Below, in pieces: positions 3,821 to 10,365 of a stretch of 64,000 nt of DNA. Location of the stretch: contig NZ_LFYT02000003.1 of assembly GCF_001270065.2 (NCBI RefSeq), forward strand, positions 124,001-188,000, given 5' to 3'. The position numbers and the translations under genes were made by a program. The notes under the pieces were generated by a model. That model worked only from the letters and a program-made list of their open reading frames with translations. It made no database searches and was not told the origin of the DNA. How positions within the stretch are numbered: the stretch's first letter is position 1; each line of letters starts with the position of its first letter. Source of the stretch: Limnohabitans planktonicus II-D5 (lineage in GTDB: Bacteria > Pseudomonadota > Gammaproteobacteria > Burkholderiales > Burkholderiaceae_C).

Positions 3821-3941
3821 GCGTGCTGTACTTAGGCCCTTCCCCTGCCACAGTCGCATCCGCCAATCGGTCCAGCCGTGTCGCGGAAGGTAAATTTCAA
3901 CCAACTAATGTTTCCCAGAGGGAAACGGAGGTCAGCGAATC

Positions 3942-6809
3942 ATGAGCGAGACAAATTCCGTCTACTCCGCCTATTCAGGCAATACCCATCTCTTCGGGGG
4001 CAATACCCCCTACGTCGAAGAGATGTATGAGAACTACCTGGCCAATCCTGGCAGCGTGCCCGATTCCTGGCGCGACTACTTTGATGCCTTGCAGCACGTT
4101 CCCGCCCTCGATGGCTCCAACGCCAAAGACGTGCCCCACCAGCCGGTCATCAATGCTTTTGCCGAGCGCGCCAAAGCCGGCGGCACCAAAGTTGTCATGG
4201 CCAGCGCTGACGTCGAGATGGGCCGCAAGCGCACTGCCGTTCAGCAGCTGATCGCCGCCTACCGCAACGTGGGCCAACGCTGGGCAGACCTGGACCCGCT
4301 CAAGCGCACCGAGCGCCCCAATATTCCTGACCTTGACCCCGCTTTCTTCGGCTTCACCGATGCCGACCAGGAAACCGTGTTCGACACCAGCAACACGTTT
4401 TTTGGCAAGAACAACATGTCCTTGCGCGAGCTGCTCAATGCGCTGCGTGAGACCTATTGCGGCACCTTGGGTGCCGAGTACATGTACACCACCGACCAGG
4501 CTGAAAAGCGCTGGTGGCAGCAAAAGCTCGAGAGCATCCGCAGCAAGCCCAACTTCACATCGGACAAGAAAAAGCAGATCCTCGACCGCCTGACAGCCGC
4601 CGAAGGTCTGGAGCGCTACCTGCACACCAAATACGTGGGTCAAAAGCGCTTCTCCCTCGAAGGAGGTGAGAGCTTCATCGCCGCCATGGACGAGCTGATC
4701 CAGCAAGCCGGTGCGCAAGGGGTGCAGGAAGTCGTGATCGGCATGGCCCACCGCGGCCGCTTGAACGTCTTGGTCAACACCATGGGCAAGCTGCCGGCTG
4801 ACCTGTTTGCCGAGTTTGACCACACCGCACCGGAAGAATTGCCTGCCGGTGACGTGAAATACCACCAAGGCTTCAGCTCTGACGTGAACACAGTGGGCGG
4901 TCCCGTCCACCTGTCGCTGGCCTTCAACCCCTCGCACCTGGAAATCGTGAACCCCGTGGTCGAGGGCTCTGTGCGCGCCCGCATGGACCGCCGGGGTGAC
5001 CCCCTGGGCAAGCAAGTGCTGCCCGTTCTGGTCCACGGTGATGCCGCCTTCGGTGGCCAGGGCGTGAACCAGGAAACCTTTGCCTTGGCCCAAACCCGTG
5101 GTTACTCCACAGGCGGCACAGTTCACATCATCATCAACAACCAGATTGGTTTCACCACGTCTGACCCGCGCGACATGCGCTCGAGCGTGTTCTGCACCGA
5201 CATCGTCAAGATGGTCGAAGCGCCGGTCTTGCACGTCAATGGTGACGATCCAGAGGCCGTGGTCCTGGCCACTCAGCTGGCTTTGGAATACCGCATGACG
5301 TTCCAAAAAGACGTGGTGCTGGATGTGGTGTGTTTTCGCAAACTGGGTCACAACGAGCAGGACACCCCTGCACTGACCCAACCGCTGATGTACAAAAAGA
5401 TCGCGGCCCACCCCGGCACACGCAAGTTGTTTGCCGACAAGCTGGCCACGCAAGGCTTGGGCGAAACCATTGGCGACGACATGGCCAAGGCCTACCGCGC
5501 TGCTTTGGACGCAGGCAAGAACACCACCGAGCCGGTGTTGACCAACTTCAAAACCAAGTTCACTGTGGACTGGGCGCCTTTCATGGGCAAGAAGTGGACC
5601 GACGCGGGTGACACCTCCATTCCTTTGGCCGACTGGAAACGTCTGGCCGAGAAAATCACCACCATCCCTGAGTCGGTCACACCGCACCAGTTGGTCAAAA
5701 AGGTGTACGACGACCGCGCCGCCATGGGCCGTGGCGACATTCCGGTGGACTGGGGCATGGGCGAGCACATGGCTTTCGCCTCACTCGTGGCCAGCGGCTA
5801 CCCTGTGCGCCTGTCGGGCGAAGATTGCGGCCGTGGCACATTCACCCACCGTCATGCGGTCATTCACGATCAAAAGCGCGAGAAGTGGGACACCGGCACC
5901 TACGTCGCCCTGCAAAACGTCTCTGACAAGCAGGCCCCCTTCACCGTGATCGACTCGATCCTGTCCGAAGAAGCTGTGCTCGGCTTTGAATACGGCTATG
6001 CCTCCAACGACCCCAACACCCTGGTGATCTGGGAAGCCCAGTTCGGCGACTTTGCCAACGGCGCTCAGGTGGTGATCGACCAGTTCATTGCGTCGGGCGA
6101 AGTCAAGTGGGGCCGTGTGAACGGCCTGACCTTGATGCTGCCGCACGGCTACGAAGGCCAGGGCCCCGAGCACAGCTCAGCCCGTGTGGAGCGCTTCATG
6201 CAGCTGGCGGCTGACACCAACATGCAGCTCGTGCAGCCCACCACGGCCAGCCAGATCTTCCATGTGCTGCGCCGCCAGATGGTGCGTGACCTGCGCAAGC
6301 CGCTGGTCATCTTCACGCCCAAGTCGCTCCTGCGCAACAAGGACGCCACCAGCCCGGTGTCCGAGTTCACCAAGGGCAGCTTCCAGACGGTGATCCCCGA
6401 GAACAAGGCGCTCAAGGCCGACAAGGTCAAGCGCGTCATCGCTTGCTCGGGCAAGGTGTACTACGACCTGGTCAAGCAACGCGAATCCAAGGGCTCTGAT
6501 GACGTGGCGATCATCCGCGTGGAACAGCTCTACCCCTTCCCGCACAAGGCCTTCGCAGCCGAGATCAAGAAGTACCCCAACGCCACCGACATCGTCTGGT
6601 GCCAGGACGAGCCACAGAACCAGGGTGCCTGGTTCTTCATCCAGCACAACATCCACGAGAACATGCTCGAAGGTCAAAAGCTCGGTTATGCCGGTCGCGC
6701 AGCGTCCGCGTCACCTGCGGTGGGTTACTCACACCTGCACCAGGACCAGCAAAAAGCACTGATCGAAGCGGCCTTCTCGAAGCTCAAGGGCTTCGTGCTG
6801 ACCAAGTGA
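3942..6809 (+). CDS. sucA: 2-oxoglutarate dehydrogenase E1 component
   Basis: A thiamine-diphosphate decarboxylase of 955 residues, full length for the family. It catalyses the first step of the 2-oxoglutarate dehydrogenase complex, decarboxylating 2-oxoglutarate and passing succinyl to the E2 lipoyl arm. The N-terminal segment with VEEMYENYLANPGSVPDSWR is the usual E2-contacting region. GMAHRGRLNVL and the TPP-binding GDAAFGGQG starting at residue 366, with NNQIGFTTSDPRD downstream, mark the active site. YEGQGPEHSSAR lies in the transketolase-like half. ACGGAGG sits about ten bases before the ATG. First gene of an operon with odhB and lpdA. Confidence 0.97.
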   Translation: MSETNSVYSAYSGNTHLFGGNTPYVEEMYENYLANPGSVPDSWRDYFDALQHVPALDGSNAKDVPHQPVINAFAERAKAGGTKVVMASADVEMGRKRTAVQQLIAAYRNVGQRWADLDPLKRTERPNIPDLDPAFFGFTDADQETVFDTSNTFFGKNNMSLRELLNALRETYCGTLGAEYMYTTDQAEKRWWQQKLESIRSKPNFTSDKKKQILDRLTAAEGLERYLHTKYVGQKRFSLEGGESFIAAMDELIQQAGAQGVQEVVIGMAHRGRLNVLVNTMGKLPADLFAEFDHTAPEELPAGDVKYHQGFSSDVNTVGGPVHLSLAFNPSHLEIVNPVVEGSVRARMDRRGDPLGKQVLPVLVHGDAAFGGQGVNQETFALAQTRGYSTGGTVHIIINNQIGFTTSDPRDMRSSVFCTDIVKMVEAPVLHVNGDDPEAVVLATQLALEYRMTFQKDVVLDVVCFRKLGHNEQDTPALTQPLMYKKIAAHPGTRKLFADKLATQGLGETIGDDMAKAYRAALDAGKNTTEPVLTNFKTKFTVDWAPFMGKKWTDAGDTSIPLADWKRLAEKITTIPESVTPHQLVKKVYDDRAAMGRGDIPVDWGMGEHMAFASLVASGYPVRLSGEDCGRGTFTHRHAVIHDQKREKWDTGTYVALQNVSDKQAPFTVIDSILSEEAVLGFEYGYASNDPNTLVIWEAQFGDFANGAQVVIDQFIASGEVKWGRVNGLTLMLPHGYEGQGPEHSSARVERFMQLAADTNMQLVQPTTASQIFHVLRRQMVRDLRKPLVIFTPKSLLRNKDATSPVSEFTKGSFQTVIPENKALKADKVKRVIACSGKVYYDLVKQRESKGSDDVAIIRVEQLYPFPHKAFAAEIKKYPNATDIVWCQDEPQNQGAWFFIQHNIHENMLEGQKLGYAGRAASASPAVGYSHLHQDQQKALIEAAFSKLKGFVLTK

Positions 6810-6853: not shown

Positions 6854-8131
<1,278 letters not shown>

Positions 8132-8138
8132 TTTCAAC

Positions 8139-8924
8139 GTGAGTGAAAATAAACCGAGCGTTGAGCAGGTGGCTTTGAGTCATCTGCTAGATAACGCATA
8201 TGAAGAGTTCAAGTTATCTATTCATTCAGCTAGTGCTCGGTTTGTTTTATGGGGATCTTTTCGGGATGCCGCGGACCTAAAACAGCACTACTTTGCAGCA
8301 AAGAATAAGAAGTTCCTTTTGGATGGAAGACGTAGTGCAAAGAGTTTTAGCCCCAGTGATTCGACTCTTAAAGAGGTTGTCGAGCTAGGTGCAGCAGAAG
8401 CAGAGGCGTATGTCGATTGGGTGCGAGAACAAAATGGGCAACCGATCCTCCGCGAAATGCTTGTGTCCTACTGCACAGTATTCGAAAACTGTTTGAAAAA
8501 CGTTGCGCTTGTTTTTCTTCTCGCAAACAAGAAGAACCAAGGTCTCCGCGGTCAGGTTTTTGTACCTGGCGACGAGTTTAGGAAAGCGCTTCACAGCATC
8601 CAGGATCGATGGCGTGCAGCTGGTAGTGCTGAAAAAAGCCGGGCAGAACAGTTTTTTGATTCGAATATTCAAACAGTAAATGTGGACTGCTCCCGCTTTC
8701 AATTTCTGCCAATGAGTGCTCCTGAATGGTCCACATGTCGCGCGGCTTATCAAGCCCGAAATGCTTTGGTGCATCAATTGGGCCGACCCTTTGAAACTCT
8801 TGAAATTGATGGAACACCATTGCCTGCTGGTTGGGAAATTCAGCTTACCCCAGCGCAGTTGCTAGCCGTACAGAGATCATTTGAAAAAATCTTGTGGCCA
8901 TTGGATCCACTGAACCAACTTTAA
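8139..8924 (+). CDS. HEPN-motif protein of unknown function inserted in the odh operon
   Basis: A 261-residue protein read from GTG at 8139, seven bases after the odhB stop and thirteen before the lpdA ATG. No Shine-Dalgarno is evident, so coupling to odhB translation is likely. Its most telling feature is RNALVH at 207-212: the R-polar-x3-H pattern of HEPN domains, many of which are metal-independent ribonucleases in toxin-antitoxin and defence systems. The helix [20 protein letters not shown] (107-126) resembles the first HEPN helix of MAE-type or RiboL-PSP families; that match is from memory. Base use differs from its neighbours: 24 G+C in each of the stretches 8161-8220 and 8281-8340, against 34 in 7561-7620 of odhB. 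No antitoxin or nucleotidyltransferase partner is adjacent. The ribonuclease role is inference. Confidence 0.7.
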
Positions 8925-8937
8925 TTTTGGAGTGAAC

Positions 8938-10365
8938 ATGTCTAAACAATTCGACGTCGTTGTCATCGGCGGTGGCCCTGGTGGCTACATCGCAGCGATT
9001 CGTGCTGCACAACTCGGTTTCCAAGTCGCTTGTATCGACGAGTGGAAAAACGCGGCCGGTGGCCCAGCCCCCGGCGGCACCTGTACCAACGTGGGTTGCA
9101 TCCCCTCCAAGGCTCTGCTTCAATCGAGCGAGCACTTTGAGCATGCCAACCACCACTTCGCAGAGCACGGCATCACCGCCACGGACGTGAAGATGGATGT
9201 GACCAAGATGATTGCCCGCAAAGACACCGTCGTGAAGCAAAACAATGATGGCATCTTGTACCTGTTCAAGAAAAACAAGGTCACCTTCTTCCACGGTCGT
9301 GGCAGCTTTGCGGGCAAGGCAGAAGGTGGTTACACCCTCAACGTGGCAGGCAAGACCGAAGAGTCCATCACCGCCAAGCAAGTCATCATTGCCACCGGCT
9401 CGAACGCCCGTGCCTTGCCCGGCACACCGTTTGACGAAGTCAATGTGTTGTCCAATGATGGCGCTTTGCGCGTGGGCGCTGTGCCCAAGAAGCTGGCCTT
9501 GATCGGTTCCGGCGTGATCGGTCTGGAAATGGGTTCGGTCTGGCGTCGACTGGGCGCAGAAGTCACCATCCTCGAAGGCCTGCCCACATTTTTGGGCGCG
9601 GTGGACGAGCAAATCGCCAAAGAAGCCAAGAAGGCTTTTGACAAGCAAGGCTTGAAGATTGAACTGGGCGTGAAAGTCGGCGAAATCGTCAATGACAAAA
9701 ATGGCGTCACCGTCAACTACACCAACGCCAAGGGCGAGGCGGTGGTGCTGGATGCGGACAAGCTCATCGTGTCGATTGGCCGCGTGCCCAACACCATTGG
9801 CTTGAACACCGAAGCTGTGGGCCTGCAGCTGGACGAGCGCGGCGCGATCGTGGTCGATGCTGATTGCAAAACCAACCTGCCCGGCGTGTGGGCCGTGGGT
9901 GATGTGGTACGTGGCCCCATGCTCGCGCACAAAGCCGAAGAAGAGGGCGTGGCCGTGGCCGAACGCATCGCGGGCCAACACGGGCACGTCAACTTCAACA
10001 CCATCCCTTGGGTCATTTACACCAGCCCCGAGATCGCTTGGGTCGGCCGCACCGAGCAGCAGCTCAAGGCCGATGGCGTGGCCTACAAGGCGGGTTCGTT
10101 CCCGTTCCTGGCCAACGGCCGTGCCCGCGCCTTGGGCGACACGACCGGCATGGTGAAAATGCTGGCCGATGCCACCACCGACGAAATCCTGGGCGTGCAC
10201 ATTGTGGGGCCCTCGGCTTCCGAGTTGATCGCCGAAGCTGTGGTGGCCATGGAGTTCCGAGCGAGTTCGGAGGACATTGCCCGTATTTGTCACGCCCATC
10301 CCAGCTTGAGTGAAGCCACGAAAGAAGCGGCACTGGCCGTGGATAAGCGCACCTTGAACTTCTAA
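8938..10365 (+). CDS. lpdA: dihydrolipoamide dehydrogenase (E3)
   Basis: An FAD-dependent pyridine-nucleotide disulfide oxidoreductase of 475 residues that re-oxidises the dihydrolipoyl arm of E2 and reduces NAD+. The N-terminal FAD-binding GGGPGGY is at 11-17, and the redox-active disulfide is Cys49/Cys54 in [15 protein letters not shown] second dinucleotide motif GSGVIGLE lies mid-protein, and the C-terminal dimer-interface His lies in [13 protein letters not shown] at 8938 is preferred over GTG at 8932 because TTGGAG is five bases upstream. Last gene of the sucA operon, followed by a terminator. Confidence 0.96.

Follow-up and report, generated by a model that had tools for sequence, protein, structure and literature searches.

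A rare, compositionally foreign and probably HEPN-type gene in an operon gap of 2-oxoglutarate dehydrogenase genes that repeatedly takes up cargo

In the sections of PMC3710099 used here, the strongest feature of the HEPN superfamily is an Rx4-6H motif in which the residue after the arginine is mostly N, D or H. Those sections also describe, for many HEPN families though not all, a second conserved acidic residue in helix 2, typically within Ex3[KR]. Searches for defence and toxin genes usually turn to islands and to the surroundings of mobile elements. That hotspots of defence genes can lie between core genes is known in general (PMC10121019, PMC10250203). A search of titles and abstract openings, with most subscription journals outside its scope, found no account naming a slot between odhB and lpdA among the papers listed. 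The same search found no paper linking HEPN with integration hotspots.

We analyzed a 64,000-nucleotide stretch of Limnohabitans planktonicus II-D5 DNA, referred to here as the window. Its 2-oxoglutarate dehydrogenase operon carries an extra gene between odhB and lpdA. The ORF at 3942..6809 is presumably odhA, a name that follows from the operon given in the initial annotation and from the family. The features of the locus are as follows.

3854..3937, + strand: sucA RNA motif (RF01070), a putative cis-regulatory RNA ahead of odhA (Rfam, 79.3 bits against a gathering score of 40)
3942..6809, + strand: odhA, 2-oxoglutarate dehydrogenase E1, 955 aa (ORF)
6854..8131, + strand: odhB, E2, 425 aa (ORF)
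8132..8138, + strand: 7-nt junction TTTCAAC, no Shine-Dalgarno (sequence)
8139..8924, + strand: HEPN-like gene, 261 aa, GTG start (ORF and homologue alignment)
8484..8498, + strand: codons of the Ex3K motif, E116-N-C-L-K120 (invariant in 3/3 homologues; motif named in the cited sections of PMC3710099)
8757..8774, + strand: codons of the Rx4H motif, R207-N-A-L-V-H212 (invariant in 3/3 homologues except at the fourth place, which is L or I)
8925..8937, + strand: 13-nt junction with GGAG ahead of lpdA (sequence)
8938..10365, + strand: lpdA, E3, ATG start at 8938, 475 aa (ORF; start agrees with relatives)

The sucA RNA motif is the sole Rfam match above the gathering score within the window. The odhB gene ends at 8131 with a TGA stop codon. 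The HEPN-like ORF comprises 261 codons and ends with TAA at 8922-8924, and the junction that follows reads TTTTGGAGTGAAC. Its GTG start is backed by a homologue in another genome (L002/L021), whose ATG also lies 7 nt past the odhB stop and whose N-terminus aligns with that of the window protein. The initial annotation had described a 261-codon GTG gene with junctions of 7 and 13 nt, no Shine-Dalgarno sequence and RNALVH at residues 207-212; all of this is present in the sequence. A promoter scan of positions 7900-9050 returned 0 sites, which is weak evidence because shuffled sequences average 1.0.

The composition of the gene is foreign, and it was apparently acquired. Its GC content is 0.464 and its GC3 0.408, against 0.617 and 0.742 for odhB and 0.595 and 0.739 for lpdA. 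Together, odhA, odhB, lpdA and the next gene range over 0.57-0.62 in GC and 0.72-0.80 in GC3. The G+C content below that of the neighbors had been noted before, from samples with 24 of 60 bases. The direction holds and the figure itself lies on the low side, as 60-nt windows average 28 G+C in the HEPN-like gene and 37 in odhB.

The gene is also rare. Its protein matches two of 399 family genomes, its own included, so there is one other carrier, in another genus. Its own genome is the sole match among 398 phylum genomes and among 399 order genomes. A two-row profile matches 1 of 90 genus genomes (its own; of the 90, 56 have a completeness of 90% or more and a contamination of 5% or less) and 1 of 5 genomes in the genus of the second carrier, G251. 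Family-wide fixation, which the initial annotation had named as evidence against its reading, is thus not what these genomes show. In a species-level genome collection, a single-sequence scan found no relative, and an alignment scan found two, L021 and L020. We took L021 as the same record as G251, a MAG from an uncultured beta proteobacterium; L020 is a Comamonadaceae MAG. Three homologues are therefore known in all, of which the other two are 35-38% identical to the window protein. The G251 homologue (L002, L021) lies between odhB and lpdA, 7 nt past the odhB stop, like the window gene. It is 35% identical to the window protein over 253 residues (89/253); between the two genomes, identity is 95% for the odhB protein end used as a query and 90% for that of lpdA. 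The L020 homologue follows a partly sequenced gene close to the end of its contig and has a tRNA-Thr gene as its other neighbor, with no odhB or lpdA adjoining; this stretch (L020:1-1321) is possibly the edge of a genomic island. No homologue was found in viral contigs or plasmids, or in phages with the window protein alone as the query; the contig scans, being based on short peptide patterns, are blind to distant relatives.

Membership of the window protein in the HEPN superfamily is probable, as judged from its sequence. The competing view is that the protein is helical but of another kind, and that something other than HEPN membership accounts for the recurrence of RNALVH and ENCLK. In the alignment, RNA[L/I]VH and FENCLK are kept in 3/3 homologues. 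R-N-A-[L/I]-V-H agrees in all three with Rx4-6H carrying a polar residue after the arginine, and E116-x3-K120 is an invariant Ex3[KR], the helix placement of which comes solely from a low-confidence model. R207 and H212, whose variation among homologues had been put forward earlier as a reason to abandon HEPN, are both invariant. R[NDH]x3-5H occurs in 9% of shuffles of the window protein, and in 31% if any polar residue is allowed second; the motif alone is therefore weak, which favors the non-HEPN view. Against that view, both motifs are invariant in three homologues at 35-38% identity. An R-H motif invariant across the three arose in a fraction of 0.00095 of 100,000 column shuffles, and in 0/100,000 when an invariant Ex3[KR] upstream was added; these figures are optimistic because shuffling scatters conserved blocks, and three sequences only stand behind them. 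The RTasHEPN model of PADLOC (PDLC03820) gave a weak match in 2/3 members (best E 0.0056), which also speaks for HEPN. On the window protein, this match covers residues 187-216, the motif region, with an E value of 0.0066.

Other profile comparisons lean towards the non-HEPN view. No Pfam or NCBIfam family was found over cut-off for the window protein, nothing in PHROGs, and no related PDB sequence; the other two homologues have no curated family model at cut-off either. Such a match is a practical guide to HEPN membership and does not define it. The L020 homologue shows a sub-threshold similarity to RiboL-PSP-HEPN (PF18735) with E 0.089 and 13.1 bits against a cut-off of 28.4. The profile check against RiboL-PSP that the initial annotation had suggested fell within the shuffled controls: hhalign against 8 RiboL-PSP-HEPN proteins, chosen from 15 matches among those with the R-H motif, scored 16.4, and at least 5 of 60 shuffles scored higher (maximum 21.5). 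Against one RTasHEPN-like protein, the score was 20.2, with 3/60 shuffles higher. RTasHEPN, RiboL-PSP and HEPN-MNT were all considered as named families, and the protein was assigned to none of them. Matches to Haem_oxygenas_2 (E 0.089), DpdD (E 0.02), fuculose aldolase (E 1.1) and VirB8 (E 0.055) were set aside as chance. The AlphaFold model of the window protein (pLDDT 39.7, pTM 0.29) is too low in confidence for use. It places helices at 73-96, 102-129 (containing E116 and K120), 197-211 (with the R-H motif at its end) and 238-259. This order fits the four-helix bundle of HEPN, in which the R-H motif ends helix 3, and at such a pLDDT is no more than a hint. On balance, we consider a non-HEPN protein fairly unlikely.

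Our preferred explanation, to which we give about an even chance, is a solitary HEPN-type RNase effector that is single-gene cargo of the odhB-lpdA gap and is expressed from the 2-oxoglutarate dehydrogenase operon. For this protein we infer RNase activity, co-transcription, a trigger and a role in defence. The HEPN-like gene would have entered the gap as single-gene cargo. It would be transcribed with odhA-odhB-lpdA, with its translation coupled to the odhB stop codon, because no promoter-like or ribosome-binding site is visible. If the gene is on the operon mRNA, as the missing signals suggest, it may share the control exerted by the sucA RNA motif. The C-terminal part would form the HEPN bundle, with E116-x3-K120 in helix 2 and R207-N-A-L-V-H212 ending helix 3, and would cut RNA without metal, probably as a dimer. 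Because no antitoxin is adjacent, the activity might be restrained by the first ~100 residues of the protein itself, or might await a trigger, for example infection by a phage. Once triggered, the enzyme could cause growth arrest or abort the infection. The initial annotation had likewise proposed an RNA module that entered a TCA operon and borrows its expression. The foreign composition, the single gene and the signatures in 3/3 homologues support this in part; no HEPN model was reached, and the borrowed expression is still presumptive.

A non-toxin role was considered as well. An HEPN-like RNA-binding or regulatory protein could tune the operon, or other mRNAs, with TCA-cycle demand, and a gene placed within the operon downstream of the sucA RNA motif, with no antitoxin, would suit such a role. 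However, 89/90 genus genomes lack the HEPN-like gene, and the operon is kept without it where the slot is readable. The catalytic-type R and H are, moreover, both kept in 3/3 homologues. We regard a regulator as improbable.

Insertions recur in the odhB-lpdA gap, a slot that holds varied small-gene cargo, mostly in the operon direction. A query joining the end of odhB to the start of lpdA allowed the gap to be read in 67/76 genus genomes (8 gave no match and 1 was without odhB). As estimated from this joined query, 61 gaps are 11-61 nt long and 6 are 517-809 nt long; seven genomes were read as one merged match, for which the gap was entered as 12 nt. The family DNA sample comprised the best-scoring lpdA matches among the matches listed, plus G251, G346 and G029 by hand, and is thus non-random and biased to close relatives. 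L001, a duplicate of the window slot, and L020, which is outside the slot, were left out beforehand. From 149 loci measured, 4 were dropped (L027, with odhB missing at a contig end, and L061, L087 and L126, in which no lpdA start was found), and merging several loci per genome gave 143 genomes.

Among the matches listed and the three added by hand, the gap is at least 340 nt in 27/143 genomes. An ORF of at least 50 aa runs in the operon direction in 26 of these 27. Both this gap and the one between odhA and odhB were readable in 119 genomes. Inserts of at least 340 nt occupy odhB-lpdA in 19/119 and odhA-odhB in 0/119 (Fisher p 1.7e-6, shared ancestry ignored); at a 100-nt bar, the counts are 52/119 and 19/119. 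In five family loci, two of which carry slot inserts, the contig ends short of odhA, and genus loci are mostly too short to include odhA. The slot is better supported, and more surprising, than the HEPN reading. A comparison of this gap across relatives had been suggested in the initial annotation. It bears out that the gene is not fixed; the site itself is not peculiar to the window genome, because a diverged homologue lies in the slot of another genus and varied cargo recurs there.

Toxin-type or HEPN-like cargo is found in 7/27 insert genomes. DUF4160 and DUF2442 exceed the Pfam cut-offs in G1175, where DhiT and, weakly, DhiA matched below the NCBIfam cut-offs. DNA relatives of this DhiTA-type cassette, 77-94% identical, are present in G1208, G1199 and G381. 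DUF4160+DUF2442 (DhiTA-type) pairs occupy L022, L024, L025 and L129, in four genomes of two genera. The G279 slot (L130) contains a BrnT-type toxin gene followed by a small ORF of no assigned family. Other cargo (PspC-like, SMR-like, lipoprotein-like and other) accounts for 20/27 genomes; since most cargo is thus not toxin-like, the slot alone is no argument for defence. Family models identified DUF2867 in G1166 and, in one representative each, PspC with SHOCT, an SMR transporter and a CHMI-type isomerase. Further PspC-like, SMR-like and lipoprotein-like cargo was recognized by eye only. In the G029 slot (L155), there are small ORFs, two of them arranged like a pair; the first has no family match and the second a chance-level match. 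GC is below that of the flanks by about 0.05 or more in 14/14 inserts of at least 500 nt and in 2/13 shorter inserts.

This variety, mostly not toxin-like, and the sporadic presence of the gene would also suit a neutral passenger, in a gap that is merely insertion-tolerant, with no function tied to the operon. A passenger would not be expected to keep a 261-codon frame intact and its motifs conserved despite deep divergence, to have a relative at this very site in a second genus, or to belong to a class of inserts of which all but one run with the operon. We consider this quite unlikely. An ordinary fixed operon member is rejected because the gene is rare in the family, genus, order and phylum genome sets, and a phage or plasmid gene because viral contigs, plasmids and phages (the last with the window protein only) gave no match.

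Returning to the effector reading, in which the gene is cargo of the slot, we looked at how cargo arrives. A G+C-rich hairpin with a trailing T run is present in 11/11 empty genus slots of 58-61 nt that were read (e.g., L008, L013 and L014), and the strict pattern occurs in 0/15 such gaps elsewhere. This element is a possible attenuator between odhB and lpdA. It is not seen in the window's slot nor, under a looser pattern, in the 6 genus inserts, save one match within the coding part of G1199. The absence of the hairpin suggests that cargo replaces the gap instead of adding to it. In a tree of 34 genomes built from 597 nt of odhB and lpdA (5/31 inner branches well supported, bootstrap not settled), two insert genomes each group with an empty one: G1166, carrying DUF2867 (96/91), and G1224, carrying lipoprotein-like cargo (98/93). 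The two gains therefore appear to be separate. G251 is placed outside the 13-genome group that includes the window genome; the placement of the HEPN and DhiTA genomes is poorly supported. Long recombination tracts reaching across the flanks find no support as a route of transfer, as odhB and lpdA divergence in the compared pairs stays level towards the slot. Nor do the data show a recent transfer of DhiTA-type cassettes between genomes, since in 5/6 pairs the odhB ends resemble each other more closely than the cassettes do.

A wider, rather doubtful proposal is that, in these beta-proteobacteria, a landing slot dedicated to incoming genes lies between odhB and lpdA. It would receive single genes or toxin-antitoxin-type pairs by clean replacement from stop codon to start codon, with no visible integrase, and would place toxin-like effectors under the sucA RNA, tied to TCA-cycle activity. 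An HEPN-like gene, DhiTA-type pairs and BrnT in one gap of a core metabolic operon would be missed by island-based searches. Should the slot prove general, one gap readable in any family genome would become a place to seek new effectors. It would also make one question testable: does expression from the TCA operon give such genes a metabolic trigger? In short, the odhB-lpdA gap of the 2-oxoglutarate dehydrogenase operon takes up cargo repeatedly, and in the window it holds a rare, compositionally foreign gene that is probably a HEPN type, with a function that we infer.

Compared with the Abi-type and stand-alone HEPN RNases, as presented in the cited sections of PMC3710099, the window protein has in common the Rx4H motif with N after R, the upstream Ex3K and, in the low-confidence model, a helical build. 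Unlike them, it is without a Pfam or NCBIfam HEPN match, is ~260 aa long, has three members and sits in a TCA operon. The likeness to RTasHEPN of defence-associated reverse transcriptases (PADLOC PDLC03820) is a weak local match of 30 residues (187-216). Unlike those systems, its direct neighbors are odhB and lpdA, with no reverse transcriptase adjoining. For RiboL-PSP-HEPN (PF18735), the likeness is the sub-threshold hint from L020, which is below cut-off and not above shuffles. HEPN-MNT (HepT-MntA) toxin-antitoxin systems resemble it in having a putative HEPN RNase. They differ in that no MNT gene adjoins the window gene, whose control may instead lie in its own N-terminal part; a genome search for NTP_transf_2 gave 5 matches, 0 of them on the window's contig (C3). 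A type II toxin-antitoxin system has a cognate antitoxin in its operon, and none is present here, the gene standing single between odhB and lpdA (G000, G251); in L020, the contig ends within the upstream gene. The absence of a visible antitoxin had been remarked on earlier and stands, the neighbors being odhB and lpdA. The DhiTA, BrnT and DUF2867 cargo of relatives encodes proteins unrelated to the window protein, and it shares with the window gene the odhB-lpdA gap, the direction and a GC content below that of the flanks.
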